From NCBI RefSeq assembly GCF_038396675.1, contig NC_088931.1, positions 58,434,501-58,498,500 on the forward strand: 64,000 nt of DNA, written 5' to 3'. Both the position numbers and the translations under genes were made by a program. Below, piece after piece: positions 17,834-61,808 of the stretch. The stretch's first letter is position 1, and every line of letters starts with the position of its first letter. The notes beneath the pieces are model-generated. The model saw only the letters and a program-made list of their open reading frames with translations. It was not told the DNA's origin and did not search any database. The stretch is from Hydra vulgaris. Lineage: Eukaryota; Cnidaria; Hydrozoa; Anthoathecata; Hydridae.

Positions 17834-17837
17834 ATAT

Positions 17838-18017
<180 letters not shown>

Positions 18018-18190
18018 CAATATATCATTATTTATAGCATTATTTAAAACTATTTTCAAAACTATTTTTTGTTAAATATTTTATTAAAAAAAGTACTTCT
18101 CATTACAAGCGGTTTTCAAGTTTTACAGATTAAAGTTTTGAATAAAAAATGAAAAAAATACAAAATGTATAATTTTGTTTTATTTCTTAG

Positions 18191-21010
18191 TTAAATTATT
18201 TCAAGAACATATTTCTTTGATTTAAAGGTAGGAATTTCTTCCCTGTGTATCATTCTTGTTCTAACAAATCCATCTCTTCTTTCTTGGCCGTAAACAATGG
18301 CAGATGCTTCCGTCACGCTTTTGACGCAGCGTTCTGTTGCTTGAGTGTGAATGCTGAATTTAGGAATTTTCAATTGATCTTCAATGAATTTGGAGACCTC
18401 CACTTTAGAAAGATTACATGTAAATATTGGTTCATAACAATCTTTTACATTCCAAGAAATTAGTTCTTGAAGAATAGTAGCGTCAAGGTTAATTTTTGGA
18501 GATATTCTTTTTCGAACAGCAGTGTCTCCAAGCTCATTATTTCCTCTAATTTGTAAAACCTTATCAACACCAAACATTCTTTCATTTTTATTAGAGCTAG
18601 TCAAGAGTGAAACCAGAATACACTCACTATGGCTGTACCAAGCCCCAGTTCAAATATAAGGTGTAATAATATTCGCCAAATTGACTGGCATTGTCTTTAG
18701 AATTTTAAGTTCAAGCAAAATGTGTCTTGGTCCGTCCTCCAGCAGATGTTTGGAAGAAATTTCAAAATAAAGTTTGAAATACATTTTGACACAAAATTGA
18801 ACTAATATCTTTAAGATCTCCAACTCACTGTATTTAAGGTTATGATTTCTTTTCCACAAAAACATCAAAGCCATACCTGTTGTAAGCCAGCGAGAATGAG
18901 ACAGTGATCCACATTTTAGATTTGCGAGATCCGGAGAAAGTTTTCCTGACTTGATAGCATTTACATATCTGTAACTGATATAAGCATCAGTAGATAAACT
19001 TTTTATGTCTTTCTCACCAAGTTTTGGAAGCTCCTCTCCATCTGGCAGGGGTGTAAAATTATAATTTATTGTCATATCATTTACATACTTAAGGTTTTTG
19101 CAAACTGATCCTGTAAATCCGTCCTTGCTACTTGTCGGACCATCAAGGGATATAATTAAATGTCGTAGCTTGAGTTCATTTGTATGTTTCATGCAAATCG
19201 CCCAATAGCATTTATGTCCTAACATTTTTTCAAGATGGGCATGAATTCCCCCTGACCATCCTGTGTTGATATTAGTTGAATCTCCACCTATTACTATGCA
19301 TAACTCATTTGCATTGTTTTTTTCAAGCACATCATAGAGTGCTTCAGCGATTTTTTTTGCAGGTTTTTCCGGATGAAGGGCAGGTTCTGGCGTGATGTGA
19401 GCAAGATAACGTCCAGTTGGCTCCCAAGATACACTTATATGCTCCTCTTTTATGACTCTAGGGTGAAGTTTTTCGTATTTATCTGGAACTAACGTTTTGG
19501 TCCAGTCTTTTCTTCCATCATAAGCAATTCCAATTATATTTTCGTTACTACATTTATTAGCTTCAATTATTGTATTTTCTTTCATTACATTATTTTTAGC
19601 CCTTCGCATTTTATTTGGGTCAACAGAAAGGTATGACATATCAGGAGAAAGATAACCTGCAGCTATAAAATCTTTTATTATACCAGTGATTATAGCAGCC
19701 CCACCAACATTAGAAATATTATATCTTATTGCAGCTGATGCCGCATGTGTTATAGTCATTTTGTTTTGCTTTAGACTTGGTTTTTTTAAGTATCTTGTAA
19801 CCAGTGATGCAAATTTTCCTAGTTTTTCTTCAAGCAACTTGTCGGCCAAAGTTTTTGTTTCTTTTTTTAGTTGTGCAGTATTTACATTGTATGTATCATC
19901 AGTATCATCAATACCATTTTTGTTTTCTTCATGCAGATTGAAAACAAGTTCAGGATTCTAAATTTTTTAAACATGCAGTTTCTATAATATAATCTTATTA
20001 CTTACCAATATTGGTAAGTAATATTATATATAATAGAATATATAAATTTTAAATTTAAAAAAGTTAAGTATATATTAAACATTAAAAAGTTAGTTTTAAA
20101 GACTTTCTTAGATTGCGGTAATAAATGTTTTAAAAAAATTAAAGAATTATATTCATGCTAATTGAGCTAACCTGAAATTTATTAAACTCATATTTTCTTT
20201 CATTTTCTTTTTTTTCCCTTTTTCTTGCAGCTTCTTCCTGAATGTTTTTCCTATTTTCTCTTCTCCGTAGGCGAACTGATTCTTTATAATCACATAAACC
20301 AATTTGCATAGTAGAAATCTCTTTCTTTTTAAGCCTCTGATTACGAAGCCAAAGAAGATCAAGTACAGGAACTTTTTGTAATAGAGGGCATGAACAATAA
20401 ACATGTGCACCTAATTTGCAGTTTTTGGGATCATTGCAAAATGATGCTGCCTCTGTGCATATAATGATTGTATGAGTACATGATATGATATCAAAGAGAC
20501 TATCAAGCTCATTAGTTATTTTGTTGGTTGCTTCTTTGGATGGTTTTGTGTTTTTTAAAAACCTGGATATTTTAAACCATAGTCTACTTATTTTTTCTGC
20601 TAGTAATTTTTCCGAAATTGTAACTGGTGGTTTAAACATACTATTTGCTTTGAACCATTGAGCTGTCACCATTTTATCAAGTTCTCTGCTTAGTTCTTTT
20701 GTAGCAAAATTACTTTATCTACATTCAAATTCTATTTCTTTTCTTTCCTAAAAGGTAGATATAGATTTAGTTATTTATCACAAATAATTTATATTTAGTC
20801 AATATATATTTTTGATATAATATTTTTTGAAAATATTTTAGAAGTTAAAAAAAATAAATAAAAGCTAACCTTTAGAAGAATACCCATTTGAATTACTGAT
20901 CTTTTTGTGGGTACCTCCGACAAAACAAACTCTTTACCTTTTCCAACAAAAGTAGACAATTTAGTTGCTAAACTATGTCTAGTTTTCACATTCGATGTAT
21001 AGTTACTCAT
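18191..21010 (-). pseudogene. transposase-like three-exon gene, left-arm copy, two in-frame stops
   Basis: This is the mirror copy of 43256-46075. Exons are at 20870-21010, 20172-20747 and 18191-19957, reading outward from the centre of the palindrome. The same two stops are present: TAA at 20715-20717 and TGA at 18650-18652. See the right-arm entry for motifs. With both copies carrying both lesions, neither arm keeps an intact version. Confidence 0.7.
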
Positions 21011-23640
21011 TGTTAGTACTGTTATTAGAAATAAATTAAAAAATACACATTATTAAAAAGTACTTGTGATTAGAGTCTTTTTTATAAAATACGTTTTTAG
21101 TATATAAACAAAGTAAATTTGAATTCTCGGGTATATAAACTGAATAAAATCCTGCTTCTTTCGTTTCTTTGTTTTGAAAATATCTTTTCTTAACAAAAAC
21201 ATGTATTTAAGATAACAATGTATGTTACAATCGTATTGTAATTTTACAATCGTAGTTTATAAAAGAAAAATGTACATGACTGGGGCTAGAAGACGACAAA
21301 ATTAGTCTTTTCATTGAGCCCCGAAAAAGATAAAACATCACCATAAGGTCAAAATAATAACCAAAAAAAATTCTATCACATAGTTCATTTTATTACATAT
21401 GTTCAATATGCATAATCGCTGAATATGCACAATACGCATTATAAAAACAAACTTTATGATATTTTGATAACTAGTATTTATTTTTCAAGGTAAGTATTAC
21501 TTACCTTGAGAATTATACAGTTGTTACAACACATTCTCAAAAAACGGGTAATTATTTACAATAAACTATAAAATGTATAACTAAAAGTCTCAATCGCCTT
21601 ACCAAAACATTTTCAAATTAAAAAACGCAAAAAAGAAACTCAAATTAAAATTTAATTTTACATAGGATTATCAGTACGCCGTATTATTTTAATCAAAATT
21701 ATTTTAGCGATGTACCCTAATGTATATATGATATATAGCATTATTTAATAACATTATTAATATTATTTTATAATATGATTATTATATTATATTAAGATTT
21801 ATTATTGTTATCAAAAATGAATTTTTATTCATGATATAAAAAAATATATTACTTCTAATAATTAAATAAAGCTTAACAAAAAATATACATATATTCAACA
21901 AAATATTGCGTTTCTTTACTTCATATTTTTTTACTACATCGCAAAAGATATGTTAAAGTTTTAACAATATCTAAACAAATATTGCAGACCGGAAAAAAAA
22001 TATGTTTGTTATCGCCGAGAACAATAAGATAAAACTTGCATTAGCGGCGTTGAGTAAGCTTACAATGCGACTATCGCATAATTTTTTGGTAATAAATATA
22101 GTATTTGAAGTTTTCCTTAAATTAACTTCAAATATGGTAGACTTTACTAGGATCATTATTCTTGGGATTTTTTTTATTTTTTTATTTATTTATTTATTTT
22201 TTTTCTGCACCTTCTTTTTAGTATACCACAATTTTCTTGACGAATTTTTCATTTTTCATCAAAATTATCATTTTCTTCAACCGTTGTAAAACACCTCTGC
22301 AAATACATTATTGAATAGATTAAGTCTATCTTTTTTTTTTTTTTCTTTTTTTTTTTTTTTTAAGGATATCACGATTGTCAATTCGAATTTTTAATTTAAA
22401 TATTTTTATTTTAAATTTATTAATATTTTCCAATTGATTTGTAAAAGTTCTTCTTTGACCCACATGCAGCAACTTTGAACTCGACTAGTGCGTTCACAAG
22501 TCGAACGCACTAGTTTCAGTGGTTTGAACTTGATGTTTCTCTTCAGATTATTACATTAGCATTTACAACCATAGTTCAATAAATCAAGTTAAGTAAAAAG
22601 AAATGAATCTGCTTTTCTACTTTGTATAAACAGTCAACGTAACATGTCATGACGTTAGAATTATGTTGCTTTATGTCACGACGTTAGAATTATCTTTTTT
22701 TGCTTTTAGGGTGTGCTTTCTATATATTTTGTTTGTCTTTGATATCTTGAACACTAAGTACCTTTAAGGGAATTCTTTTTTACTATTTATATTTTCTTTG
22801 CTTTTAATTTTATACTTTATCTAGAATTTTTCAATACAAAAGCCGCGCGATGTAGAATAATTAAAAATTGATTTTGTTCTTACTTTGAAAATGGCTAATA
22901 TTACTCGAAACATAAATTACTTTTATGCGGTTGCTTTTTTAAATTACATAAAAAAATACTTTTATAAAAACTATAAAACTGTTATAAAAACTTTAAAATT
23001 GATATAACCTATAGTTAGGGTTGCTATTGTCCGAGTGTGTAGGAGAACGCAATAAGAATTTAACTTTGATTAGTTTAGCGCTGCGCTCTCCTACGTAAAA
23101 ACAGGGACAATGGCAAAATCTACCTATAACGTCAATATACATGATAAATATTCGGCTAAAACAGATTCTAGCAACTGGATTCATTCGGGTAACGCTGATA
23201 TTAAAGTTTGAATTTATGATAGTATTACACTTTAAGGTGTTAAGCCATTATAGTTATCATAAAAAGCTTACAAACTTACGGCATTTTCTCCTCCTATAGG
23301 AGGAGAGAATTCAGTCGGCGAAATTTTTTATATGCAATCAAATTATTTATCTGCTTGTCATATATGACAATCATGGGCCAATAATGCTTTAGAAAACAGT
23401 CAATAATGCTTTAAAATCATGGGCCAACGAACAAATAGTTTGTTTGTTGGCCCATGATTCTAAAGCATTATTGACTGTTAAATTTAAAAGTTGTCTTTAA
23501 ATACTATTCTACTTTCCTCTCAAAATAATGTTATTCTAGTTTTTATTATTCGTAATAATAACAACTACAATAACAATATTTTGTAACAATATTGCTATTT
23601 CTATTTAAAAGTAATATTACTATTTTTATTAATATTATTA
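21011..23640. other. non-coding part of the left arm
   Basis: No gene is recognised in this AT-rich stretch. It contains several dyads: 21485-21509 (core CAAGGTAAGTA), the 12-bp-arm ACTAGTGCGTTC hairpin near 22487-22514, a CGC-rich stem near 23040-23090, the CTCCTCCTATAGGAGGAG palindrome near 23287-23306, and the large hairpin at 23395-23479. Short frames such as 22002-22289 are AT-biased and lack motifs. Confidence 0.55.
23395..23479. repeat. 41-bp-arm hairpin with a 3-nt loop
   Basis: The arms 23395-23435 and 23439-23479 pair with two mismatches around the loop TAG. They contain CAATAATGCTTTA and ATCATGGGCCAAC. A third partial copy (ATCATGGGCCAATAATGCTT) lies just left, near 23370. The mirror hairpin is at 40787-40871. 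Confidence 0.85.
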
Positions 23641-23650
23641 TATAACTATT

Positions 23651-23935
23651 ACCCAGACAGCACACGACTCTGGGCCAGAACTCCGGCGAATTGTCACTCG
23701 CTGTTGCGACTGTATAAGCAACGGGCCATTACTGGCGCGAGTCTGGCAAGCGACTCAAGCAACTTTTTCATGTATGGTAAATCATCGCAAAGAACCGCAG
23801 CGGCATGCGACGAAATGCCAGAACTCTGGCGAGTAGTGGTGAGCCACTGCGACGGCATTTGATTTTGGGCCAGCACTGGCCCGTTTGCGGTGAAGACAGA
23901 GTCGAATACAGGCCGAATGTCGTTTTACCATAATT
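23651..23935. repeat. GC-rich island starting ACCCAGACAGCACA (possible transposon terminus)
   Basis: In very AT-rich surroundings this 285-bp segment is GC-rich and repeats words around ACTGGC and GGCCAG (near 23672, 23727, 23820, 23870). It opens abruptly with ACCCAGACAGCACACGACTC. In the right arm the mirror ends GTGCTGTCTGGGT at 40615. This abrupt edge with subterminal repeats could be the true terminus of the inner element, which would then span about 23651-40615. Confidence 0.5.
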
Positions 23936-24240
23936 TAAATGCCTTTTTTTCGTTAGACGTGATGACTGTAATAAAATATCACATCCGCCTAAAATATCAC
24001 ATCCCCCATAGAAAAACCGAAATCGAGAATGCGTTTTCAAGTTATTGCACTTAGAAGTGTATCTAGTACGTCCGAAATATTTATTATGAACAAAAACAAT
24101 AAAATTAAAAGCGCAACGATCAAGATTCATAAAGTGGTTTGTAAATAATATACTACAAATGAAGTTAGCATTAAATGGTAATATATTTTAAAGTCATAGT
24201 TATGAAATTTTGATCTTAATATATTGCGTGACAATAATTA

Positions 24241-26593
24241 TACAGATTACACATGGGGGATGTGATATTTTAGATACCAAATACTAATACTTTTCATTAT
24301 TTTAAATGTTACATAGGGGGATGTAATATTTTAGAAGCCTGAATAAGGGGGATAAGATGTTTTACGTAGGAATTTCAGCTTCTTATTGTGATATATATAC
24401 AGATTACACATGGGGGATGTGATATTTTAGATACCAAATACTAATACTTTTCATTATTTTAAATGTTACATAGGGGGATGTAATATTTTAGAAGCCTGAA
24501 TAAGGGGGATAAGATGTTTTACGTAGGAATTTCAGCTTCTTATTGTGATATATATACAGATTACACATGGGGGATGTGATATTTTAGATACCAAATACTA
24601 ATACTTTTCATTATTTTAAATGTTACATAGGGGGATGTAATATTTTAGAAGCCTGAATAAGGGGGATAAGATGTTTTACGTAGGAATTTCAGCTTCTTAT
24701 TGTGATATATATACAGATTACACATGGGGGATGTGATATTTTAGATACCAAATACTAATACTTTTCATTATTTTAAATGTTACATAGGGGGATGTAATAT
24801 TTTAGAAGCCTGAATAAGGGGGATAAGATGTTTTACGTAGGAATTTCAGCTTCTTATTGTGATATATATACAGATTACACATGGGGGATGTGATATTTTA
24901 GATACCAAATACTAATACTTTTCATTATTTTAAATGTTACATAGGGGGATGTAATATTTTAGAAGCCTGAATAAGGGGGATAAGATGTTTTACGTAGGAA
25001 TTTCAGCTTCTTATTGTGATATATATACAGATTACACATGGGGGATGTGATATTTTAGATACCAAATACTAATACTTTTCATTATTTTAAATGTTACATA
25101 GGGGGATGTAATATTTTAGAAGCCTGAATAAGGGGGATAAGATGTTTTACGTAGGAATTTCAGCTTCTTATTGTGATATATATACAGATTACACATGGGG
25201 GATGTGATATTTTAGATACCAAATACTAATACTTTTCATTATTTTAAATGTTACATAGGGGGATGTAATATTTTAGAAGCCTGAATAAGGGGGATAAGAT
25301 GTTTTACGTAGGAATTTCAGCTTCTTATTGTGATATATATACAGATTACACATGGGGGATGTGATATTTTAGATACCAAATACTAATACTTTTCATTATT
25401 TTAAATGTTACATAGGGGGATGTAATATTTTAGAAGCCTGAATAAGGGCGATAAGATGTTTTACGTAGGAATTTCAGCTTCTTATTGTGATATATATACA
25501 GATTACACATGGGGGATGTGATATTTTAGATACCAAATACTAATACTTTTCATTATTTTAAATGTTACATAGGGGGATGTAATATTTTAGAAGCCTGAAT
25601 AAGGGGGATAAGATGTTTTACGTAGGAATTTCAGCTTCTTATTGTGATATATATACAGATTACACATGGGGGATGTGATATTTTAGATACCAAATACTAA
25701 TACTTTTCATTATTTTAAATGTTACATAGGGGGATGTAATATTTTAGAAGCCTGAATAAGGGGGATAAGATGTTTTACGTAGGAATTTCAGCTTCTTATT
25801 TTGATATATATACAGATTACACATGGGGGATGTAATATTTTAGATACCAAATACTAATACTTTGCAGTATTTTAAATGTTTCATAGGGGGATGTAATATT
25901 TTAGAAGCCTGAATAAGGGGGATAAGATGTTTTACGTAGGAATTTCAGCTTCTTATTGTGATATATATACAGATTACACATGGGGGATGTGATATTTTAG
26001 ATACCAAATACTAATACTTTTCATTATTTTAAATGTTACATAGGGGGATGTAATATTTTAGAAGCCTGAATAAGGGGGATAAGATGTTTTACGTAGGAAT
26101 TTCAGCTTCTTATTGTGATATATATACAGATTACACATGGGGGATGTGATATTTTAGATACCAAATACTAATACTTTTCATTATTTTAAATGTTACATAG
26201 GGGGATGTAATATTTTAGAAGCCTGAATAAGGGGGATAAGATGTTTTACGTAGGAATTTCAGCTTCTTATTGTGATATATATACAGATTACACATGGGGG
26301 ATGTGATATTTTAGATACCAAATACTAATACTTTTCATTATTTTAAATGTTACATAGGGGGATGTAATATTTTAGAAGCCTGAATAAGGGGGATAAGATG
26401 TTTTACGTAGGAATTTCAGCTTCTTATTGTGATATATATACAGATTACACATGGGGGATGTGATATTTTAGATACCAAATACTAATACTTTGCAGTATTT
26501 AAAATATTACATAGGGAGATGAAATATTCTAGAAGCATAGATAAGGCGGATGTGATGTTTTACGTAGGAATTTCAGCTTTATGTTGTGATAAT
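24241..26593 (+). repeat. left array of the 157-bp minisatellite, ~15 copies
   Basis: The unit length is 157 bp, measured from CATGGGGGATGTGATATTTT recurring at 24252, 24409 and 24566. Each unit contains two relatives of ACATRGGGGGATGTRATATT plus AAGGGGGATAAGATG. Most units are identical. One variant unit near 25801-25890 has TTTGATATAT, GATGTAATATT and TTTGCAGTATT. The last, inner unit (26480-26593) is clearly more diverged, as expected at an array edge. Confidence 0.95.
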
Positions 26594-28741
26594 TAGTCAC
26601 CACATATACTGAAATAGTGGTAGCACTTTTTTATTTCTTTCAGCTTTGTTGGAATATGTTTAAAAATATATGAAATATATATGTATACAATTTATGTTTA
26701 TTTACAAAGCTTATAATAAATTTACAATTTTTTGTATTCTTTATTTTCATTATTTTTTTTAGCTTTTTAATTTTTAATTAAATCTTCTATTAAATTTAGA
26801 TGCGATTGAGCTAACAATTAAAAAATGCAAAATTGTTCAACCAAGACTTTGAAAAAGCTTTTTAAAATGCATAAGGCTTTGAACAAGTTAATGAGTTCTA
26901 AAGATTCAAAAAGAACACAGCTAACACATTTTTATGCTTGTATTTTTATGTTTTAGTGCATAAACATTTAAGGAAAAGAAATAAATACTGTTTGTCATTG
27001 TTGTTTCTTTTTTTGTATGTTTAAAAATTTAAGGAGAGAGGGCTAGAAAATATTTGGAATCTTTTATTAAATAAAAGAAGCTTCTTTATTATCCCAATAC
27101 AGTAACAATTTTAGAATATGATTAAATTAACATTTTTTTGTGGGTGGTATGAGAGAAGGTGCCTCTGATTCTTGAATCATTTTTGAACCTTCTCAAGTCC
27201 AGTTTAGAAATCGATTTATATATATATTTATAATGATAAATGTAAAATCATTGTGAATTTTTTTATTAAGGAACATTAAATACCAATGTGTAATGATAAA
27301 GAATACTGTACCAATACTGTATGTGCATTGTAGTATATTTATAGTACTGTATAATATTATGGAAAAGACGAACATAAAATATTTGGGAATTGCGATTATT
27401 TACTGTTAACTAATTTGAAATCAAAACAGCATGTTGATTATTGTTGTTTTAAGCCCACTGCGACATCGAAATGCTTTCGCGAATATTTTAATCATTTCGA
27501 CAACAAAACAATTGAGCAATAATAAAAAATTTCTATTTGTACACACTTATAATATTTGGTTTCTTTATTTACTTAATGATACAAATGCTTTAAACCGTGT
27601 CCCACATTGTACGACGAGGATTTCAACAACAATTAAAAATCGTGCTTATAATGACAGCCAGATAGCGAGGAATTTGACAAGTTTAAAATAAGGATGAAAG
27701 CGTGGTGGTTTAATTAAAATGATTAAGTTAGATAATAAAATTGACTATATCGATTGGCATATGAAAGACTTTTTAATTTCAATTCAACGAGTCGAGTACA
27801 AACACGTAGCCGTGGTAACAAAATTCCGAACATAAATTGCCGGTAATTATAATATTTGTCAAACAGTTCGACTTGAGCAGTTCAGGAAAGGACTGAGTTT
27901 AAGCAAAGTGAAGTGAAATTATATTAGTAAATATTTATTATTTGAGGTTAAAAGTTGAGCGCACAAATTTTTGTTTTGAATACACCTTCGTCTGACGTGT
28001 CAGAAACCCAGAGCTATTCAAATTTTATTACGCATAATACTGGTCTCAAAACATCTTTAAAAAACATTGAAAATATTTAAATAATATTTTTGTTACTTTT
28101 TTATTCAAAAGTTTCTATTCTACTAATTAAGTATTTTTACTTTTCTTCAACTTAATTTAATCTAAGTAGTTTAATTTTCTACGTGTAATCTTAATACAAA
28201 GTAGGCATTGAAATTTATCCCCCTTCTACTACTTGCCTTACCGAGTCACACTTTACCTACCAAGGCTAGTTGTACAGGTTAGTCAACAAAAAGCCTCTCC
28301 AGACCACAACATAAGTCACAATCTTTCGGCGAAGCCGTCAGCAACCCTTGCATGTGGAAATAGACGTTTTTAGAGGAAAAAAACATAAGTATTAGAAAAT
28401 AGAAATATAAGCGTTACAAAGATAGGCATACAGAAAGGAGACAGAACGCTCATTTTAAAAGACAAAACTAAAAGAAAACAATAAATTTCTCTACAAAATA
28501 AATGATATTAAATGTTGTGTTTTTTCCGCACGAAAGACATAATTTAGTATAATAAAAGTCAAACGTGTGCAGCACATTTATCGTATATTGTATATGTAGC
28601 CAAACTGCTTTCCGTATGAGCCATTAAGACATACTTATTGATTTTCTTACGATTATGTATGTATATAAATAGTCCCTAACTCAAAATATGTAAACAGGTT
28701 TGATATACTCATTACAATTTTGAAAAACTTAAAAGTTAAAA
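26594..28741. other. unique core, upstream of the integrase gene
   Basis: AT-rich sequence with no recognisable coding region. The open frame at 27431-27691 (86 codons) has no motif. It presumably contains the promoter and 5' region of the gene starting at 28742, but I see no definite signals. Confidence 0.5.
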
Positions 28742-31700
28742 ATGGAAAAGGTGGAAAAAAACGAACATTACTTTAAAAATATTTTAGCATATTTAACAGA
28801 GAGCACTTATCCAGCTGGTTTTCGAAAAGATGAAAAACGAAGTTTGAGAAATGTGTCAAAAAGTTATTGTGTGCTAGGTACTGGTAATAAAAAAAAAAAC
28901 TAAAATTTAAATATTTCATTGAAATAAATGAAATTAAAAGTATACTTGTTCAATATTTACTATCCTTAGATAACAAGTTGAAGCGTAGAGTAAAGATATG
29001 TGGAAACTTATATTATGCGGATATTGTTGTGGATACGGAAGAGCAAAAAAAAATTTTTGCTGCGGAACATGACAGTCCTTTAGGGGGTCATGGTGGCACA
29101 AACAAAACAATAATGAAAATAATGGAAAAACATTATTGGCCCAATATTACCGGAGATATTAAAAAATGGGTAAAGTATTTTGCTTTTAAATTTATTTAAT
29201 TGCATTATTTTTATTTTATTATCATAGTAAGTTGTAAAACCACTACCATCAGCCTTGGGAAAATAAGATAAAAGGTTAAAAAAGGAATAAAAAAATAACT
29301 CTTTTAATAGATAAAACAATGCATTCAATGTCAAACATCGGGTCAACTGCTTTCCGCATCCGAACCTTTACATTCCATAAAGGTAACTTAATAAAGTGTT
29401 TTTAAATATCTTTCTAGAATTCGGAATCTTTAATTTAGTATATTATACGAATGTATAATGTATTATGTTTACTTTGTTAAGTTGCATTATGTTGAAATTT
29501 TGTGTTTAGACCACAAGAATTTGGGAAATTATTGGTTTAGACTTCGCCGGACCATTTACTAAAACATCAATGGGTAACAGATACTTCATGAGTTGCACCG
29601 ATTTATTTTCCAAATGGCCTATTGCTTACGCATTACCAAATAAGGAAGCAATAACGGTAGCAAGAGCGATTATTAATTTAGTTACAACCTTTGGTTTTCC
29701 ATCCGTCATACTTACTGACAATGGAACTGAGTTTTGCAATGAGGTATTTTTTAATTTTTTTATATAATGCAGACCCGTAGGAACAACATTAGGTCGAATC
29801 CTTTAAGGATGAATTAGAATAAAACATTTTGATTTTGTATAATACAGCATTTACGATAGCAAGTAATAAAAATAATTCATTTTTTTCCGTTATTTAATTA
29901 GTTAAACGATGAGGTATATAAGATCTTGGGTATCGAACGACGAAGAACTGCTGTTTATCACCCTCAAACAAATGGACAAGATGAAAATACAAATAAAAAT
30001 ATAAAAAGGTGTGCATTATTTTATCATTGTTTAAGTTCAAAATAAAATAATGATAATAACATCATTATTTTGAAATTACGTTAATTAGAAAAATCAGAAA
30101 ACTTGTCGACGAAAACCAGTCAAACTGGGATGAGTTTCTCGATATAGTTTTATACCCATTACGAATTGAAAGACAAACGTCTACAAAAGTGTCACCTTTT
30201 GAGTTAATGTTTGGTGGTCGTTCACCTGTTTGCAAAAGTGAGTTCAAAGAAGTAAGTATATTTGGATATCATTTTAAGCAATTATATTTACTTTACACTC
30301 ATAATTTAGTATACCAATACCAGTATGCATTGTTATTTAGGAGGTCGGTATTTTCCCCGCAAACGAAGATGAAGTTAAAGCTGAAATCGAAAAAAATAAA
30401 ATTCATATTGAAAACTTAACCAATTTGGTCACTAAAGTAATCACTTATACCACTTAACTTTAATTTAATTTTTAAGATACCCTCTTTTTTTTTCTTTTTT
30501 TCTAATTACAATAGTTATAAATTTTAGAACATTACAGAAGCTCAAAAGAAACAGAAAAAATATTACGATAAAAGAGTTTCAAAAAATATCAAATCTAATG
30601 AAGAATGCATTGAAATTGGGGACAAAGTTTTGTTACTTGATATTAGAGGGAGGAGAAGCAAAGGCGCAGCTTTCAAGCCACGGTTTAAAGGACCTTATGA
30701 AGTAAGCGATATTACAAAATGTGGAAATTACAAACTGAGTAGTAATAAAGTTATTATAAAAGGAACCCACAAAAGAGCCCATGTTAAGAAATTTCTCGAA
30801 GGCATTTGTGATAAAGGTATGCGCACAACTTATATACAAGTTTTCCAATAACTACTTTTTTTAACTTTTAAAAAGAAAGCTAAAGAGTTTCATGAATATT
30901 ATTGCTAAACAACCAATTTTTTCTAATTTGAAAGACTTTTGTACCTTCTACTTTAGAAACAACAAAAAACGAAATAGAAATAAAAAAAAAACATTCATTG
31001 GTGGAAAGCATAAAGGGTAAATAGTAACAACAGATTTTCTTTTTATGTTTCAACTTTTGGTCTGCTTAAGCATTTTTTTTCCATATTTTATTTTTTGTTC
31101 AATTTTCTAGAAGCAAATAAGGCAGAGCAGATAATTAAAAGCTTTGTAGTTAAAGATAGTGAAGGTATGTCTTAAAAAATTACCTTTACATTTATATTTG
31201 TTATCTTTTTATTTTAATTTCTATCCAATTTTTTAGAGGCAAATAAGGCAGAGGAGACAATAAATAGCTTTCTAGTTGAAGATAGTGAAGGTATGTAATA
31301 AAAAACTACCTTTTTATTTATAAGTGTTAACGTTTTATTTAATGTATGGTTTGTTTTGTAGAGGAGGCAGATTCAATAAAAAGCTTCGTAGTTAAAGACA
31401 GTGAAGGTATGTATTAAATAATTACAGTTTCATTTATATTTGTTAGCCTATCATTTTATATTTATGTTCAATTTTATAGACGAGACAAATAAGGCAGAGG
31501 AGACAATAAAAAGCTCTGTCGTTGAAGATAGTGAAGGTATGTATTAAAAAATTTTCTTCAAATACCTTCATGTTGGCTTTTTATTTTAATTTATGTGCAA
31601 TTTTCTAGAGATGTTTTATACAAAAAAAAGCTGCATAGTTGAAGATAGTGAAAGGTATATATTATTCAGTGGCGCACTAGTAAACTGAAGATTTCTATGT

Positions 31701-32349: not shown

Positions 32350-32431
<82 letters not shown>

Positions 32432-33073: not shown

Positions 33074-33167
<94 letters not shown>

Positions 33168-34125: not shown

Positions 34126-37100
34126 GCGAAAGAGATCCCCCTATGAAACATTTAAAATACTGCAAAGTATTAGTATTTGGTATCTAAAATATCACATCCC
34201 CCATGTGTAATCTGTATATATATCACAATAAGAAGCTGAAATTCCTACGTAAAACATCTTATCCCCCTTATTCAGGCTTCTAAAATATTACATCCCCCTA
34301 TGTAACATTTAAAATAATGAAAAGTATTAGTATTTGGTATCTAAAATATCACATCCCCCATGTGTAATCTGTATATATATCACAATAAGAAGCTGAAATT
34401 CCTACGTAAAACATCTTATCCCCCTTATTCAGGCTTCTAAAATATTACATCCCCCTATGTAACATTTAAAATAATGAAAAGTATTAGTATTTGGTATCTA
34501 AAATATCACATCCCCCATGTGTAATCTGTATATATATCACAATAAGAAGCTGAAATTCCTACGTAAAACATCTTATCCCCCTTATTCAGGCTTCTAAAAT
34601 ATTACATCCCCCTATGAAACATTTAAAATAATGAAAAGTATTAGTATTTGGTATCTAAAATATTACATCCCCCATGTGTAATCTGTATATATATCAAAAT
34701 AAGAAGCTGAAATTCCTACGTAAAACATCTTATCCCCCTTATTCAGGCTTCTAAAATATTACATCCCCCTATGTAACATTTAAAATAATGAAAAGTATTA
34801 GTATTTGGTATCTAAAATATCACATCCCCCATGTGTAATCTGTATATATATCACAATAAGAAGCTGAAATTCCTACGTAAAACATCTTATCCCCCTTATT
34901 CAGGCTTCTAAAATATTACATCCCCCTATGTAACATTTAAAATAATGAAAAGTATTAGTATTTGGTATCTAAAATATCACATCCCCCATGTGTAATCTGT
35001 ATATATATCACAATAAGAAGCTGAAATTCCTACGTAAAACATCTTATCCCCCTTATTCAGGCTTCTAAAATATTACATCCCCCTATGAAACATTTAAAAT
35101 ACTGCAAAGTATTAGTATTTGGTATCTAAAATATTACATCCCCCATGTGTAATCTGTATATATATCAAAATAAGAAGCTGAAATTCCTACGTAAAACATC
35201 TTATCCCCCTTATTCAGGCTTCTAAAATATTACATCCCCCTATGTAACATTTAAAATAATGAAAAGTATTAGTATTTGGTATCTAAAATATCACATCCCC
35301 CATGTGTAATCTGTATATATATCACAATAAGAAGCTGAAATTCCTACGTAAAACATCTTATCCCCCTTATTCAGGCTTCTAAAATATTACATCCCCCTAT
35401 GAAACATTTAAAATACTGCAAAGTATTAGTATTTGGTATCTAAAATATTACATCCCCCATGTGTAATCTGTATATATATCAAAATAAGAAGCTGAAATTC
35501 CTACGTAAAACATCTTATCCCCCTTATTCAGGCTTCTAAAATATTACATCCCCCTATGTAACATTTAAAATAATGAAAAGTATTAGTATTTGGTATCTAA
35601 AATATCACATCCCCCATGTGTAATCTGTATATATATCACAATAAGAAGCTGAAATTCCTACGTAAAACATCTTATCCCCCTTATTCAGGCTTCTAAAATA
35701 TTACATCCCCCTATGTAACATTTAAAATAATGAAAAGTATTAGTATTTGGTATCTAAAATATCACATCCCCCATGTGTAATCTGTATATATATCACAATA
35801 AGAAGCTGAAATTCCTACGTAAAACATCTTATCCCCCTTATTCAGGCTTCTAAAATATTACATCCCCCTATGTAACATTTAAAATAATGAAAAGTATTAG
35901 TATTTGGTATCTAAAATATCACATCCCCCATGTGTAATCTGTATATATATCACAATAAGAAGCTGAAATTCCTACGTAAAACATCTTATCCCCCTTATTC
36001 AGGCTTCTAAAATATTACATCCCCCTATGTAACATTTAAAATAATGAAAAGTATTAGTATTTGGTATCTAAAATATCACATCCCCCATGTGTAATCTGTA
36101 TATATATCACAATAAGAAGCTGAAATTCCTACGTAAAACATCTTATCCCCCTTATTCAGGCTTCTAAAATATTACATCCCCCTATGTAACATTTAAAATA
36201 ATGAAAAGTATTAGTATTTGGTATCTAAAATATCACATCCCCCATGTGTAATCTGTATATATATCACAATAAGAAGCTGAAATTCCTACGTAAAACATCT
36301 TATCCCCCTTATTCAGGCTTCTAAAATATTACATCCCCCTATGAAACATTTAAAATACTGCAAAGTATTAGTATTTGGTATCTAAAATATTACATCCCCC
36401 ATGTGTAATCTGTATATATATCAAAATAAGAAGCTGAAATTCCTACGTAAAACATCTTATCCCCCTTATTCAGGCTTCTAAAATATTACATCCCCCTATG
36501 TAACATTTAAAATAATGAAAAGTATTAGTATTTGGTATCTAAAATATCACATCCCCCATGTGTAATCTGTATATATATCACAATAAGAAGCTGAAATTCC
36601 TACGTAAAACATCTTATCCCCCTTATTCAGGCTTCTAAAATATTACATCCCCCTATGAAACATTTAAAATACTGCAAAGTATTAGTATTTGGTATCTAAA
36701 ATATTACATCCCCCATGTGTAATCTGTATATATATCAAAATAAGAAGCTGAAATTCCTACGTAAAACATCTTATCCCCCTTATTCAGGCTTCTAAAATAT
36801 TACATCCCCCTATGTAACATTTAAAATAATGAAAAGTATTAGTATTTGGTATCTAAAATATCACATCCCCCATGTGTAATCTGTATATATATCACAATAA
36901 GAAGCTGAAATTCCTACGTAAAACATCTTATCCCCCTTATTCAGGCTTCTAAAATATTACATCCCCCTATGTAACATTTAAAATAATGAAAAGTATTAGT
37001 ATTTGGTATCTAAAATATCACATCCCCCATGTGTAATCTGTATATATATCACAATAAGAAGCTGAAATTCCTACGTAAAACATCTTATCCCCCTTATTCA

Positions 37101-40026
37101 GGCTTCTAAAATATTACATCCCCCTATGTAACATTTAAAATAATGAAAAGTATTAGTATTTGGTATCTAAAATATCACATCCCCCATGTGTAATCTGTAT
37201 ATATATCACAATAAGAAGCTGAAATTCCTACGTAAAACATCTTATCCCCCTTATTCAGGCTTCTAAAATATTACATCCCCCTATGTAACATTTAAAATAA
37301 TGAAAAGTATTAGTATTTGGTATCTAAAATATCACATCCCCCATGTGTAATCTGTATATATATCACAATAAGAAGCTGAAATTCCTACGTAAAACATCTT
37401 ATCCCCCTTATTCAGGCTTCTAAAATATTACATCCCCCTATGTAACATTTAAAATAATGAAAAGTATTAGTATTTGGTATCTAAAATATCACATCCCCCA
37501 TGTGTAATCTGTATATATATCACAATAAGAAGCTGAAATTCCTACGTAAAACATCTTATCCCCCTTATTCAGGCTTCTAAAATATTACATCCCCCTATGT
37601 AACATTTAAAATAATGAAAAGTATTAGTATTTGGTATCTAAAATATCACATCCCCCATGTGTAATCTGTATATATATCACAATAAGAAGCTGAAATTCCT
37701 ACGTAAAACATCTTATCCCCCTTATTCAGGCTTCGAAAATATTACATCCCCCTATGTAACATTTAAAATAATGAAAAGTATTAGTATTTGGTATCTAAAA
37801 TATCACATCCCCCATGTGTAATCTGTATATATATCACAATAAGAAGCTGAAATTCCTACGTAAAACATCTTATCCCCCTTATTCAGGCTTCTAAAATATT
37901 ACATCCCCCTATGAAACATTTAAAATACTGCAAAGTATTAGTATTTGGTATCTAAAATATTACATCCCCCATGTGTAATCTGTATATATATCAAAATAAG
38001 AAGCTGAAATTCCTACGTAAAACATCTTATCCCCCTTATTCAGGCTTCTAAAATATTACATCCCCCTATGTAACATTTAAAATAATGAAAAGTATTAGTA
38101 TTTGGTATCTAAAATATCACATCCCCCATGTGTAATCTGTATATATATCACAATAAGAAGCTGAAATTCCTACGTAAAACATCTTATCCCCCTTATTCAG
38201 GCTTCTAAAATATTACATCCCCCTATGTAACATTTAAAATAATGAAAAGTATTAGTATTTGGTATCTAAAATATCACATCCCCCATGTGTAATCTGTATA
38301 TATATCACAATAAGAAGCTGAAATTCCTACGTAAAACATCTTATCCCCCTTATTCAGGCTTCTAAAATATTACATCCCCCTATGTAACATTTAAAATAAT
38401 GAAAAGTATTAGTATTTGGTATCTAAAATATCACATCCCCCATGTGTAATCTGTATATATATCACAATAAGAAGCTGAAATTCCTACGTAAAACATCTTA
38501 TCCCCCTTATTCAGGCTTCTAAAATATTACATCCCCCTATGTAACATTTAAAATAATGAAAAGTATTAGTATTTGGTATCTAAAATATCACATCCCCCAT
38601 GTGTAATCTGTATATATATCACAATAAGAAGCTGAAATTCCTACGTAAAACATCTTATCCCCCTTATTCAGGCTTCTAAAATATTACATCCCCCTATGTA
38701 ACATTTAAAATAATGAAAAGTATTAGTATTTGGTATCTAAAATATCACATCCCCCATGTGTAATCTGTATATATATCACAATAAGAAGCTGAAATTCCTA
38801 CGTAAAACATCTTATCCCCCTTATTCAGGCTTCTAAAATATTACATCCCCCTATGTAACATTTAAAATAATGAAAAGTATTAGTATTTGGTATCTAAAAT
38901 ATCACATCCCCCATGTGTAATCTGTATATATATCACAATAAGAAGCTGAAATTCCTACGTAAAACATCTTATCCCCCTTATTCAGGCTTCTAAAATATTA
39001 CATCCCCCTATGTAACATTTAAAATAATGAAAAGTATTAGTATTTGGTATCTAAAATATCACATCCCCCATGTGTAATCTGTATATATATCACAATAAGA
39101 AGCTGAAATTCCTACGTAAAACATCTTATCCCCCTTATTCAGGCTTCTAAAATATTACATCCCCCTATGTAACATTTAAAATAATGAAAAGTATTAGTAT
39201 TTGGTATCTAAAATATCACATCCCCCATGTGTAATCTGTATATATATCACAATAAGAAGCTGAAATTCCTACGTAAAACATCTTATCCCCCTTATTCAGG
39301 CTTCTAAAATATTACATCCCCCTATGTAACATTTAAAATAATGAAAAGTATTAGTATTTGGTATCTAAAATATCACATCCCCCATGTGTAATCTGTATAT
39401 ATATCACAATAAGAAGCTGAAATTCCTACGTAAAACATCTTATCCCCCTTATTCAGGCTTCTAAAATATTACATCCCCCTATGTAACATTTAAAATAATG
39501 AAAAGTATTAGTATTTGGTATCTAAAATATCACATCCCCCATGTGTAATCTGTATATATATCACAATAAGAAGCTGAAATTCCTACGTAAAACATCTTAT
39601 CCCCCTTATTCAGGCTTCTAAAATATTACATCCCCCTATGTAACATTTAAAATAATGAAAAGTATTAGTATTTGGTATCTAAAATATCACATCCCCCATG
39701 TGTAATCTGTATATATATCACAATAAGAAGCTGAAATTCCTACGTAAAACATCTTATCCCCCTTATTCAGGCTTCTAAAATATTACATCCCCCTATGTAA
39801 CATTTAAAATAATGAAAAGTATTAGTATTTGGTATCTAAAATATCACATCCCCCATGTGTAATCTGTATATATATCACAATAAGAAGCTGAAATTCCTAC
39901 GTAAAACATCTTATCCCCCTTATTCAGGCTTCTAAAATATTACATCCCCCTATGTAACATTTAAAATAATGAAAAGTATTAGTATTTGGTATCTAAAATA
40001 TCACATCCCCCATGTGTAATCTGTAT
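34126..40026 (-). repeat. right array of the 157-bp minisatellite, ~37.5 copies
   Basis: This is the same 157-bp unit as in the left array, in inverted orientation, over 5.9 kb. A variant unit (ATGAAACATTTAAAATACTG, ATATTACATCCCCC, TATCAAAATAAG) begins near 35088, 35400, 36343, 36655 and 37912, with related changes near 34142 and 34614. Spacings are close to 2, 6, 2 and 8 units. All other units are virtually identical. The outer junction at about 40026 (CTGTATAATTATTGTCACGC) exactly mirrors the left array's outer junction at 24240. Confidence 0.95.
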
Positions 40027-40330
40027 AATTATTGTCACGCAATATATTAAGATCAAAATTTCATAACTATGACTTTAAAATATATTACCATTTAATGCTA
40101 ACTTCATTTGTAGTATATTATTTACAAACCACTTTATGAATCTTGATCGTTGCGCTTTTAATTTTATTGTTTTTGTTCATAATAAATATTTCGGACGTAC
40201 TAGATACACTTCTAAGTGCAATAACTTGAAAACGCATTCTCGATTTCGGTTTTTCTATGGGGGATGTGATATTTTAGGCGGATGTGATATTTTATTACAG
40301 TCATCACGTCTAACGAAAAAAAGGCATTTA

Positions 40331-40615
40331 AATTATGGTAAAACGACATTCGGCCTGTATTCGACTCTGTCTTCACCGCAAACGGGCCAGTGCTGGCCCA
40401 AAATCAAATGCCGTCGCAGTGGCTCACCACTACTCGCCAGAGTTCTGGCATTTCGTCGCATGCCGCTGCGGTTCTTTGCGATGATTTACCATACATGAAA
40501 AAGTTGCTTGAGTCGCTTGCCAGACTCGCGCCAGTAATGGCCCGTTGCTTATACAGTCGCAACAGCGAGTGACAATTCGCCGGAGTTCTGGCCCAGAGTC
40601 GTGTGCTGTCTGGGT
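40331..40615. repeat. GC-rich island ending GTGCTGTCTGGGT
   Basis: Mirror of 23651-23935, and the possible right terminus of the inner element. Confidence 0.5.
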
Positions 40616-43255
40616 AATAGTTATATAATAATATTAATAAAAATAGTAATATTACTTTTAAATAGAAATAGCAATATTGTTACAAAATATTGTTATTGTA
40701 GTTGTTATTATTACGAATAATAAAAACTAGAATAACATTATTTTGAGAGGAAAGTAGAATAGTATTTAAAGACAACTTTTAAATTTAACAGTCAATAATG
40801 CTTTAGAATCATGGGCCAACAAACAAACTATTTGTTCGTTGGCCCATGATTTTAAAGCATTATTGACTGTTTTCTAAAGCATTATTGGCCCATGATTGTC
40901 ATATATGACAAGCAGATAAATAATTTGATTGCATATAAAAAATTTCGCCGACTGAATTCTCTCCTCCTATAGGAGGAGAAAATGCCGTAAGTTTGTAAGC
41001 TTTTTATGATAACTATAATGGCTTAACACCTTAAAGTGTAATACTATCATAAATTCAAACTTTAATATCAGCGTTACCCGAATGAATCCAGTTGCTAGAA
41101 TCTGTTTTAGCCGAATATTTATCATGTATATTGACGTTATAGGTAGATTTTGCCATTGTCCCTGTTTTTACGTAGGAGAGCGCAGCGCTAAACTAATCAA
41201 AGTTAAATTCTTATTGCGTTCTCCTACACACTCGGACAATAGCAACCCTAACTATAGGTTATATCAATTTTAAAGTTTTTATAACAGTTTTATAGTTTTT
41301 ATAAAAGTATTTTTTTATGTAATTTAAAAAAGCAACCGCATAAAAGTAATTTATGTTTCGAGTAATATTAGCCATTTTCAAAGTAAGAACAAAATCAATT
41401 TTTAATTATTCTACATCGCGCGGCTTTTGTATTGAAAAATTCTAGATAAAGTATAAAATTAAAAGCAAAGAAAATATAAATAGTAAAAAAGAATTCCCTT
41501 AAAGGTACTTAGTGTTCAAGATATCAAAGACAAACAAAATATATAGAAAGCACACCCTAAAAGCAAAAAAAGATCATTCTAACGTCGTGACATAAAGCAA
41601 CATAATTCTAACGTCATGACATGTTACGTTGACTGTTTATACAAAGTAGAAAAGCAGATTCATTTCTTTTTACTTAACTTGATTTATTGAACTATGGTTG
41701 TAAATGCTAATGTAATAATCTGAAGAGAAACATCAAGTTCAAACCACTGAAACTAGTGCGTTCGACTTGTGAACGCACTAGTCGAGTTCAAAGTTGCTGC
41801 ATGTGGGTCAAAGAAGAACTTTTACAAATCAAGTGGAAAATATTCATCATATGACAATAAAAATCTTGAAATTAAAAATTCGACTTGACAATCGTGATAT
41901 CCTTAAAAAAAAAAAAAAAAGAAAAAAAAAAAAAAGATAGACTTAATCTATTCAATAATGTATTTGCAGAGGTGTTTTACAACGGTTGAAGAAAATGATA
42001 ATTTTGATGAAAAATGAAAAATTCGTCAAGAAAATTGTGGTATACTAAAAAGAAGGTGCAGAAAAAAAATAAATAAATAAATAAAAAAATAAAAAAAATC
42101 CCAAGAATAATGATCCTAGTAAAGTCTACCATATTTGAAGTTAATTTAAGGAAAACTTCAAATACTATATTTATTACCAAAAAATTATGCGATAGTCGCA
42201 TTGTAAGCTTACTCAACGCCGCTAATGCAAGTTTTATCTTATTGTTCTCGGCGATAACAAACATATTTTTTTTCCGGTCTGCAATATTTGTTTAGATATT
42301 GTTAAAACTTTAACATATCTTTTGCGATGTAGTAAAAAAATATGAAGTAAAGAAACGCAATATTTTGTTGAATATATGTATATTTTTTGTTAAGCTTTAT
42401 TTAATTATTAGAAGTAATATATTTTTTTATATCATGAATAAAAATTCATTTTTGATAACAATAATAAATCTTAATATAATATAATAATCATATTATAAAA
42501 TAATATTAATAATGTTATTAAATAATGCTATATATCATATATACATTAGGGTACATCGCTAAAATAATTTTGATTAAAATAATACGGCGTACTGATAATC
42601 CTATGTAAAATTAAATTTTAATTTGAGTTTCTTTTTTGCGTTTTTTAATTTGAAAATGTTTTGGTAAGGCGATTGAGACTTTTAGTTATACATTTTATAG
42701 TTTATTGTAAATAATTACCCGTTTTTTGAGAATGTGTTGTAACAACTGTATAATTCTCAAGGTAAGTAATACTTACCTTGAAAAATAAATACTAGTTATC
42801 AAAATATCATAAAGTTTGTTTTTATAATGCGTATTGTGCATATTCAGCGATTATGCATATTGAACATATGTAATAAAATGAACTATGTGATAGAATTTTT
42901 TTTGGTTATTATTTTGACCTTATGGTGATGTTTTATCTTTTTCGGGGCTCAATGAAAAGACTAATTTTGTCGTCTTCTAGCCCCAGTCATGTACATTTTT
43001 CTTTTATAAACTACGATTGTAAAATTACAATACGATTGTAACATACATTGTTATCTTAAATACATGTTTTTGTTAAGAAAAGATATTTTCAAAACAAAGA
43101 AACGAAAGAAGCAGGATTTTATTCAGTTTATATACCCGAGAATTCAAATTTACTTTGTTTATATACTAAAAACGTATTTTATAAAAAAGACTCTAATCAC
43201 AAGTACTTTTTAATAATGTGTATTTTTTAATTTATTTCTAATAACAGTACTAACA
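40616..43255. other. non-coding part of the right arm
   Basis: Mirror of 21011-23650. It holds the hairpin at 40787-40871, a 20-bp palindrome at 40960-40979 and a stem near 41150-41240 (GTAGGAGAGCGC pairing with GCGTTCTCCTAC, inside CCATTGTCC/GGACAATAG). I see no gene in it. It should include the 5' region of the gene at 43256. Confidence 0.55.
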
Positions 43256-46075
43256 ATGAGTAACTATACATCGAATGTGAAAACTAGACATAGTTTAGCA
43301 ACTAAATTGTCTACTTTTGTTGGAAAAGGTAAAGAGTTTGTTTTGTCGGAGGTACCCACAAAAAGATCAGTAATTCAAATGGGTATTCTTCTAAAGGTTA
43401 GCTTTTATTTATTTTTTTTAACTTCTAAAATATTTTCAAAAAATATTATATCAAAAATATATATTGACTAAATATAAATTATTTGTGATAAATAACTAAA
43501 TCTATATCTACCTTTTAGGAAAGAAAAGAAATAGAATTTGAATGTAGATAAAGTAATTTTGCTACAAAAGAACTAAGCAGAGAACTTGATAAAATGGTGA
43601 CAGCTCAATGGTTCAAAGCAAATAGTATGTTTAAACCACCAGTTACAATTTCGGAAAAATTACTAGCAGAAAAAATAAGTAGACTATGGTTTAAAATATC
43701 CAGGTTTTTAAAAAACACAAAACCATCCAAAGAAGCAACCAACAAAATAACTAATGAGCTTGATAGTCTCTTTGATATCATATCATGTACTCATACAATC
43801 ATTATATGCACAGAGGCAGCATCATTTTGCAATGATCCCAAAAACTGCAAATTAGGTGCACATGTTTATTGTTCATGCCCTCTATTACAAAAAGTTCCTG
43901 TACTTGATCTTCTTTGGCTTCGTAATCAGAGGCTTAAAAAGAAAGAGATTTCTACTATGCAAATTGGTTTATGTGATTATAAAGAATCAGTTCGCCTACG
44001 GAGAAGAGAAAATAGGAAAAACATTCAGGAAGAAGCTGCAAGAAAAAGGGAAAAAAAAGAAAATGAAAGAAAATATGAGTTTAATAAATTTCAGGTTAGC
44101 TCAATTAGCATGAATATAATTCTTTAATTTTTTTAAAACATTTATTACCGCAATCTAAGAAAGTCTTTAAAACTAACTTTTTAATGTTTAATATATACTT
44201 AACTTTTTTAAATTTAAAATTTATATATTCTATTATATATAATATTACTTACCAATATTGGTAAGTAATAAGATTATATTATAGAAACTGCATGTTTAAA
44301 AAATTTAGAATCCTGAACTTGTTTTCAATCTGCATGAAGAAAACAAAAATGGTATTGATGATACTGATGATACATACAATGTAAATACTGCACAACTAAA
44401 AAAAGAAACAAAAACTTTGGCCGACAAGTTGCTTGAAGAAAAACTAGGAAAATTTGCATCACTGGTTACAAGATACTTAAAAAAACCAAGTCTAAAGCAA
44501 AACAAAATGACTATAACACATGCGGCATCAGCTGCAATAAGATATAATATTTCTAATGTTGGTGGGGCTGCTATAATCACTGGTATAATAAAAGATTTTA
44601 TAGCTGCAGGTTATCTTTCTCCTGATATGTCATACCTTTCTGTTGACCCAAATAAAATGCGAAGGGCTAAAAATAATGTAATGAAAGAAAATACAATAAT
44701 TGAAGCTAATAAATGTAGTAACGAAAATATAATTGGAATTGCTTATGATGGAAGAAAAGACTGGACCAAAACGTTAGTTCCAGATAAATACGAAAAACTT
44801 CACCCTAGAGTCATAAAAGAGGAGCATATAAGTGTATCTTGGGAGCCAACTGGACGTTATCTTGCTCACATCACGCCAGAACCTGCCCTTCATCCGGAAA
44901 AACCTGCAAAAAAAATCGCTGAAGCACTCTATGATGTGCTTGAAAAAAACAATGCAAATGAGTTATGCATAGTAATAGGTGGAGATTCAACTAATATCAA
45001 CACAGGATGGTCAGGGGGAATTCATGCCCATCTTGAAAAAATGTTAGGACATAAATGCTATTGGGCGATTTGCATGAAACATACAAATGAACTCAAGCTA
45101 CGACATTTAATTATATCCCTTGATGGTCCGACAAGTAGCAAGGACGGATTTACAGGATCAGTTTGCAAAAACCTTAAGTATGTAAATGATATGACAATAA
45201 ATTATAATTTTACACCCCTGCCAGATGGAGAGGAGCTTCCAAAACTTGGTGAGAAAGACATAAAAAGTTTATCTACTGATGCTTATATCAGTTACAGATA
45301 TGTAAATGCTATCAAGTCAGGAAAACTTTCTCCGGATCTCGCAAATCTAAAATGTGGATCACTGTCTCATTCTCGCTGGCTTACAACAGGTATGGCTTTG
45401 ATGTTTTTGTGGAAAAGAAATCATAACCTTAAATACAGTGAGTTGGAGATCTTAAAGATATTAGTTCAATTTTGTGTCAAAATGTATTTCAAACTTTATT
45501 TTGAAATTTCTTCCAAACATCTGCTGGAGGACGGACCAAGACACATTTTGCTTGAACTTAAAATTCTAAAGACAATGCCAGTCAATTTGGCGAATATTAT
45601 TACACCTTATATTTGAACTGGGGCTTGGTACAGCCATAGTGAGTGTATTCTGGTTTCACTCTTGACTAGCTCTAATAAAAATGAAAGAATGTTTGGTGTT
45701 GATAAGGTTTTACAAATTAGAGGAAATAATGAGCTTGGAGACACTGCTGTTCGAAAAAGAATATCTCCAAAAATTAACCTTGACGCTACTATTCTTCAAG
45801 AACTAATTTCTTGGAATGTAAAAGATTGTTATGAACCAATATTTACATGTAATCTTTCTAAAGTGGAGGTCTCCAAATTCATTGAAGATCAATTGAAAAT
45901 TCCTAAATTCAGCATTCACACTCAAGCAACAGAACGCTGCGTCAAAAGCGTGACGGAAGCATCTGCCATTGTTTACGGCCAAGAAAGAAGAGATGGATTT
46001 GTTAGAACAAGAATGATACACAGGGAAGAAATTCCTACCTTTAAATCAAAGAAATATGTTCTTGAAATAATTTAA
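43256..46075 (+). pseudogene. transposase-like three-exon gene, right-arm copy, two in-frame stops
   Basis: Exons 43256-43396, 43519-44094 and 44309-46075 join in phase 0 with GT/AG junctions (828 codons including the terminal stop). Start at the ATG of MSNYTSNVKTRHSLATKL. Exon 2 contains a Cys-rich stretch (CNDPKNCKLGAHVYCSCPL) and ends in a basic, probably coiled segment. Exon 3 has an RNase-H-fold look: GIAYDGRKDWTK, IGGDSTNINTGWSGG, KHTNELKLRHL, SHSRWLTTGMA, then a C-terminal RCVKSVTEASAIV, QERRDGFVRTR block. Asp in the first two motifs could be catalytic, as in hAT-like transposases, but I do not recognise the family. Within the frame are TAA at 43549-43551 and TGA at 45614-45616. The latter would be CGA (Arg) before one C-to-T change, and flanking residues (ITPYI, TGAWYSHSE) read straight through it. 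Confidence 0.7.
44243..44270. repeat. 28-bp perfect palindrome in intron 2 (core CTTACCAATATTGGTAAG)
   Basis: A perfect dyad inside the second intron of the arm gene, mirrored at 19996-20023. A second dyad with the same TACTTACC core is upstream at 21485-21509 and its mirror. Confidence 0.8.
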
Positions 46076-46224
46076 CTAAGAAATAAAACAAAATTATACA
46101 TTTTGTATTTTTTTCATTTTTTATTCAAAACTTTAATCTGTAAAACTTGAAAACCGCTTGTAATGAGAAGTACTTTTTTTAATAAAATATTTAACAAAAA
46201 ATAGTTTTGAAAATGGTTTTAAAC

Positions 46225-60020: not shown

Positions 60021-60180
<160 letters not shown>

Positions 60181-61755: not shown

Positions 61756-61759
<4 letters not shown>

Positions 61760-61808
<49 letters not shown>

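Follow-up and report, generated by a model that had tools for sequence, protein, structure and literature searches.

Mirrored flanks around a Ginger-like transposon with array-filled ends in Hydra vulgaris

A near-perfect palindrome of 28 kb with an integrase gene at its centre lies in the genome of Hydra vulgaris and raises the question of what, at this locus, is the mobile element. The palindrome occupies the middle of the window (the whole stretch of DNA analysed, 64,000 nucleotides, C12:58434501-58498500), and the genome searched comprises 911.5 Mb in 15 contigs. The original prediction offered two answers: a giant Ginger transposon whose terminal repeats had grown and captured a gene, or a composite in which two inverted copies of another element bracket a Ginger.

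The palindrome itself is present in the assembly, as are the 157-bp arrays inward of its arms and, by Pfam matches to Integrase_H2C2 and rve, the integrase gene in its core (Table 1). Outside the arrays, 18043-24238 and 46223-40028 are mirror images save for 12 mismatches over 6196 bp (mirror axis p+q=64266). BLAST self-comparison of the window gives one ungapped inverted match of 8549 bp (18043-26591 against 46223-37675) at 99.5% identity. Ten of the 12 arm differences fall within 22382-22433; elsewhere the arms differ at two positions only. The cluster (22382-22433 / 41833-41884) covers about 50 bp and adjoins a poly-T run, and eight of its ten differences are A or T in the left arm and G or C in the right. 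A local inversion was rejected as its source, as no inverted segment reduces the ten mismatches; the cluster may be a consensus error or a conversion tract, and is unexplained. The window also contains a separate 2.3-kb near-palindrome (59787-62133, 91% self-complementary), the 111-bp repeats of which recur at 13725-13954, and a direct repeat (10991-12420 and 57715-59134, 94.5% identical) with one copy on each side of the large palindrome.

The limits of the mobile unit can be read from its other copies. A core query (26560-30560) has at least 59 matches in the genome (best 40 of 162 candidates scored). Twenty of the matching loci were excised, the window copy included, and the 19 others were compared. 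The end sequence 23967-24238 is present in 10 of the 19; in nine of these ten, homology starts exactly at 23967 (TGTAA) with unrelated flanks outside, and in the remaining one the first 24 bp of the end did not align. In the nine other excised loci the 272-bp end was not found within the 1.5-kb flank. Used as a query, this end has at least 41 matches (best 40 of 174 candidates scored), and many of these combine in pairs to make up elements. Short flanks were taken for ten end pairs other than the window copy. Perfect 4-bp target duplications are found in six of them (GAAC, TATA, GCTG, ATAC, GGTA and GGTT), and these six copies are 7.4-29 kb long; the other four pairs comprise a cluster on C4 flanked by GCGC/GCAC, two on C3 without a duplication of their own, and one with an unmatched end. 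The C4 cluster (C4:17875982-17963248) consists of 87 kb of same-oriented Ginger units with a period of ~8.5-9 kb between its GCGC/GCAC outer flanks; in excised loci from this cluster, oppositely oriented array pieces meet beside the core. Since these copies end at 23967 and six of the ten pairs have perfect 4-bp duplications, the mobile unit is the 16.3-kb Ginger-like element 23967-40299, and the palindrome as a whole is neither a giant Ginger nor a composite. The 28-kb unit was thus wrongly regarded as mobile, other Ginger copies ending at the equivalent of 23967/40299 in unrelated flanks. The point 23651/40615, suggested as an inner boundary, is the border of a dispersed repeat (R).

Table 1. 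Features of the palindrome and of the transposon within it (window positions)
Feature	Positions	Strand	Remarks
(TA)n run	17829..18015	.	junction of left arm with the sequence on its left
Left arm	18017..23966	-	inverted duplicate of right flank (40300 to ~46486); 237-bp deletion at 18042/18043
Truncated, internally deleted copy of element E	18017..21719	-	in left arm
Dispersed repeat R, first part, cut by Ginger end	23651..23966	+	mirror copy 40300-40615
Ginger-like DNA transposon, 16.3 kb, TGTAA...TTACA ends	23967..40299	+	from copy ends, end pairs genome-wide and 4-bp target duplications
Left 272-bp terminal repeat	23967..24238	+	identical to 40028-40299; holds 2 motif copies
Left 157-bp array, 15 units	24239..26591	+	43 copies of 15-bp motif
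Transposase gene, multi-exon	28742..33650	+	H2C2 zinc finger, DDE integrase, GPY motif, Ulp1/C48 protease, PHD-like finger
Tandemly duplicated small exon and intron, 126-bp period, ~4 copies	31084..31610	+	between integrase and Ulp1 parts
Right 157-bp array, 37.5 units	34135..40027	-	111 copies of 15-bp motif
Right 272-bp terminal repeat	40028..40299	-	holds 2 motif copies
Right arm	40300..46486	+	probable original flank (template); holds most of complete hAT-like element
hAT-like element E, 4095 bp	42547..46641	+	flanked by ATATACAT/TTATACAT (7/8)

The core is of Ginger type, as was predicted, with H2C2, DDE, GPY and Ulp1 parts, TGTAA ends and, in the family, 4-bp target duplications. The integrase part of its gene is open over eight exons (434 aa). 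One of the splice combinations tried for this part is stop-free with GT-AG at every intron. An apparent frame break at a poly-A run near 28889 was resolved by an ordinary 86-bp intron. Pfam matches in the core are Integrase_H2C2 (7e-14) and rve (2e-9; 3.8e-10 on the spliced integrase part). The GPY motif is read in the translation as KGPYEV, and this part has no Pfam match above the cut-off. Exon-like pieces of the downstream part, joined by eye, match Peptidase_C48 above the cut-off (3.7e-8) and PHD below it (0.019).

Ginger1 elements are abundant in Hydra and, in the original description, have target duplications of CCGG or CCGT (Bao, Kapitonov and Jurka 2010, PMC2836005). The TGTNR ends, 4-bp target duplication and intron-containing gypsy-like integrase given there for Ginger1 (PMC2836005) are shared by the family in the window, as are the H2C2, DDE, GPY, Ulp1 and PHD parts. 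Ginger1 has a C-terminal Ulp1 or OTU protease and in some cases PHD; an H2C2/DDE/GPY integrase, a C-terminal Ulp1 protease and TGTNR termini were all found here, and so was the 4-bp duplication, in other copies and not in the window copy. None of the six perfect duplications is CCGG or CCGT/ACGG, and the family is for this reason called Ginger-like and not filed as a member of Ginger1. It also differs in size: that text gives Ginger1 terminal inverted repeats of 40-270 bp and a length of 2.6-7 kb (PMC2836005), whereas here the repeats are 272 bp plus ~2-128 units and the elements 7.4-29 kb long.

Each inverted repeat of the window Ginger consists of a 272-bp end followed by 157-bp units, 15 on the left and 37.5 on the right. 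The earlier suggestion that terminal repeats had grown by arrays is borne out in other copies, where they amount to 272 bp + n x 157 bp with ~2 to 128 units. In five such copies, unit numbers derived from coordinates are (left/right) ~2/8, 18/20, 9/25, 2/4 and 128/6. A 29-kb copy (C11:4702262-4731279) has a left array of ~20 kb and a perfect 4-bp target duplication; four samples taken from this array, 3.2 kb in all, match the end and arrays of the window copy except for 62 bp of outer flank.

Most 157-bp units share an identical sequence, and the innermost left unit is divergent. In the ungapped register the outer 14 left units differ from the right array at 11 of 2198 bp. When these 14 of the 15 units are shifted by three units, two mismatches are left (2196/2198 match); shifts of 1, 2 and 4 to 9 units give 12 to 18. 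The three-unit shift fits best, and the arrays are therefore offset by three units, an offset masked by their uniformity; within it they have a common order of variants. A degenerate 15-bp motif, picked by eye from these same repeats, occurs in both 272-bp ends and in both arrays in the numbers given in Table 1, with no occurrence in the core or in 47.7 kb of flanks. By analogy with Galileo (PMC3573991), the motif is a candidate for multiple transposase-binding sites.

The outer arms are flanking DNA, made up of half of R, mostly low-copy DNA and a hAT-like transposon (E). The outer 3.7 kb of the arms belong to E, which has at least 98 matches in the genome (best 40 of 108 candidates scored). 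All ten other E loci excised (12 including both arms) remain alignable beyond the palindrome edge, their alignments stopping between 46501 and 46649. Perfect 8-bp duplications surround TAGGG...CCCTA in six of these ten; one of the other four lies within TA repeats, and three have an end which was not found. The 8-bp duplication and short terminal inverted repeats are those of hAT elements; 8-bp duplications are also produced by some other superfamilies, and three ORF pieces of the gene in E gave no Pfam match above the cut-off, to a hAT transposase domain or any other. The gene has the same in-frame stop in both arms (18650-18652 and mirror). On the right, E is complete, has a near-perfect target duplication and reaches 418 bp past the palindrome edge. 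On the left it breaks at 18043; a 237-bp deletion follows, then ~26 bp more of E (18017-18042) and the (TA)n run. The outer edge 18043/46223, previously proposed as an element end, falls inside this 4.1-kb element, which runs to 46641 on the right, and no target duplication is apparent there.

Between E and the Ginger lie a dispersed repeat (~21720-22060), a stretch with one other match (~22049-22480; C9, 84%), DNA without other match save short pieces (~100 bp, within the first 117 bp after 23000) and then R. Full-length matches to 21720-23640 (best 40 of 588 candidates scored) and to 23000-24000 (best 40 of 288) are found at the two arms only. Among the best 40 candidates scored per search, the inner arm is full-length at this locus only, which speaks against a mobile unit of 28 kb. 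In four of the five R copies compared (L003-L006) shared sequence runs on beyond the Ginger junction; the fifth (L007) diverges there. The rest of R has no convincing match in the window, just short AT-rich ones among the matches listed. The same half of R is thus present on both sides of the Ginger.

The mirror symmetry extends to the very ends of the transposon. When the 20 bp outside one end of the window Ginger are compared with the reverse complement of those outside the other, 20 of 20 positions agree, against 2-11 of 20 in nine other pairs (C3:63675118-63680366 was omitted from this count, its right end being unlike the end motif). Where a target duplication would be expected, the left side has TGAC and the right side GTCA, so there is none at this copy.

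Other Ginger copies without target duplication form an inverted pair on C3 (C3:48003303-48012212 and C3:48123073-48131727). The left flank ends in TAGC at one copy and GCTA at the other, and the right flanks start with ATAC and GTAT. Rejoined, the first pair of flanks is contiguous elsewhere in the genome: 19 matches at 97-99% identity (best 40 candidates scored) start at 250-271, cross the join at 300 and finish at 589 or 600, and further matches across this join are shorter or 85-86% identical. Left of this join, only ~30 bp belong to the dispersed repeat. In the second rejoined pair, a THAP reading frame stays open over the junction (Pfam THAP 4.7e-9). The two copies thus appear to bound an inversion of ~111 kb, whose 4-bp target duplications are exchanged and whose flanks can be rejoined. 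Insertion of a hybrid element is a possible alternative source of the signature. It was by signatures of this kind that Galileo was shown to cause inversions (PMC2775673).

The mirrored flanks of the window copy were probably formed by repair of a break at the left end of the Ginger, with outward copying from the right inverted repeat. Flank copying is preferred because it gives the 20/20 mirror and the TGAC/GTCA pair, and a single insertion, whether into ordinary DNA or into a palindrome, does not. The same half of R on both sides, the palindrome edge within E and the truncated left E speak for it as well. What the sequence shows is the limits of the element, the mirrored flanks, the lack of the other half of R and the truncated outer edge; the break, the outward copying and the joining at (TA)n are inferred. 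A Ginger-like cut-and-paste transposon would have inserted into R, with the hAT-like element nearby on the right. Later, its left end or the DNA next to it would have suffered a double-strand break, with loss of the flank first present on that side. The left inverted repeat, now broken, would have taken the right one, an inversely oriented homologue on the same or the sister chromatid, as its template, and outward DNA synthesis would have passed along the right array and the right end and then along ~6 kb of the flank beyond. The new end would then have been sealed, at the (TA)n run, to the surviving part of the chromosome on the left, presumably through break-induced replication or fold-back repair. 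From left to right the product would consist of the left flank, (TA)n, an inverted copy of the right flank, the Ginger and the right flank itself. Of the two sides the right probably served as template, since E is complete there, with a near-perfect target duplication, and the left E is truncated. The divergent innermost left unit and the match at a three-unit shift fit a change of template close to the inner end of the left array; array identity alone is no proof of copying. That the family also marks another rearrangement, the apparent 111-kb inversion, is in keeping with this reading. Two observations count against a simple copy: the cluster at 22382-22433, and position 18051, where the left-arm base agrees with all eight other matching E copies (8/8) and the right arm differs, so that the right arm must have changed after copying.

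Arms and arrays do make one ungapped mirror alignment, as they would in a giant Ginger with ~8.5-kb terminal inverted repeats including the arms and their gene. Such an element is nevertheless extremely improbable: nine of the ten other copies with an end found stop exactly at 23967 in unrelated flanks, the nine other sampled copies are without mirrored flanks, and the arm edge, where no target duplication is apparent, lies inside another transposon. There is equally little to be said for a composite, in which two inverted E copies bracket the Ginger and could move jointly. Two inverted copies do flank it, but one boundary of E lies within the arm and the other outside the palindrome, the left copy has no outer end, and the right one has its own near-perfect target duplication, as if inserted alone; nor would two independent insertions yield the same low-copy DNA and R half on both sides. 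Mirrored arms would also result if a palindrome had existed first and the Ginger had inserted later exactly at its centre. This order of events is very unlikely, as a 4-bp duplication of a palindrome centre should be self-complementary and direct, and TGAC/GTCA is neither; R would, moreover, need to end already at the later insertion point.

Somewhat less improbable, if still unlikely, is aberrant transposition, in which Ginger ends on two sister chromatids were joined and the mirrored chromatid broke and healed at the (TA)n run. The Ginger is the exact pivot of the mirror, the window copy has an open integrase frame and the family bounds another rearrangement, all of which would suit this course; the junction 18016/18017, however, has no Ginger end, so a second healing step is needed. 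An assembly artefact, from a read or haplotig folded back at the long inverted repeats, is also rather improbable. Long inverted arrays are hard to assemble, the arms differ at just two positions outside the clustered differences, and these adjoin a poly-T run, a place where consensus errors can arise. The 237-bp deletion and different outer junction of the left arm, and the unequal unit numbers of the two arrays, would however be absent from a simple fold-back chimera.

It is chiefly in Foldback and Galileo elements that long inverted repeats built from arrays are known, and they have been blamed there for chromosome inversions. Foldback and Tetris elements are not known to have a Ginger-type integrase. 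The family described here, which has an rve-type integrase and a 4-bp target duplication and not the P-superfamily transposase and 7-bp duplication of Galileo, resembles the latter in architecture only; the transposases are unrelated. As described, this element of Drosophila (P superfamily) has long, internally repetitive terminal inverted repeats with unequal unit numbers at the two ends, inversions with exchanged target duplications, and proposed multiple transposase sites in its repeats (PMC2775673, PMC3573991). Its terminal inverted repeats are given there as up to 1.2 kb, in contrast to up to ~20 kb here (PMC2775673, PMC3573991), and they expand into the element (PMC3573991), whereas the copied sequence at this locus lies outside it. 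Foldback elements are similar in their long repetitive inverted ends, and Tetris is said to have supplied building blocks for a satellite DNA (PMC4079207). No description of array-filled Ginger ends or of Ginger-mediated inversions was found among the titles and opening parts of abstracts searched, and the 2025 paper on the Hydra genome does not use the word Ginger in its main text (PMC12220107).

It is conceivable, although put forward tentatively, that a Ginger-like lineage independently gained array ends of the Foldback/Galileo type and drives rearrangements of this genome. If true, this activity would account, within one assembly, for the 111-kb inversion, the inverted duplication of ~6 kb of flank, the 87-kb tandem cluster and the arrays of up to 20 kb. 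With array-built ends on an unrelated transposon of integrase type, Hydra would provide a case of convergence, and a testable set of rearrangements (inversion, mirrored flank and tandem cluster) would be tied to one element family. A palindrome made of repaired flanking DNA can, in this way, pass for a giant transposon.
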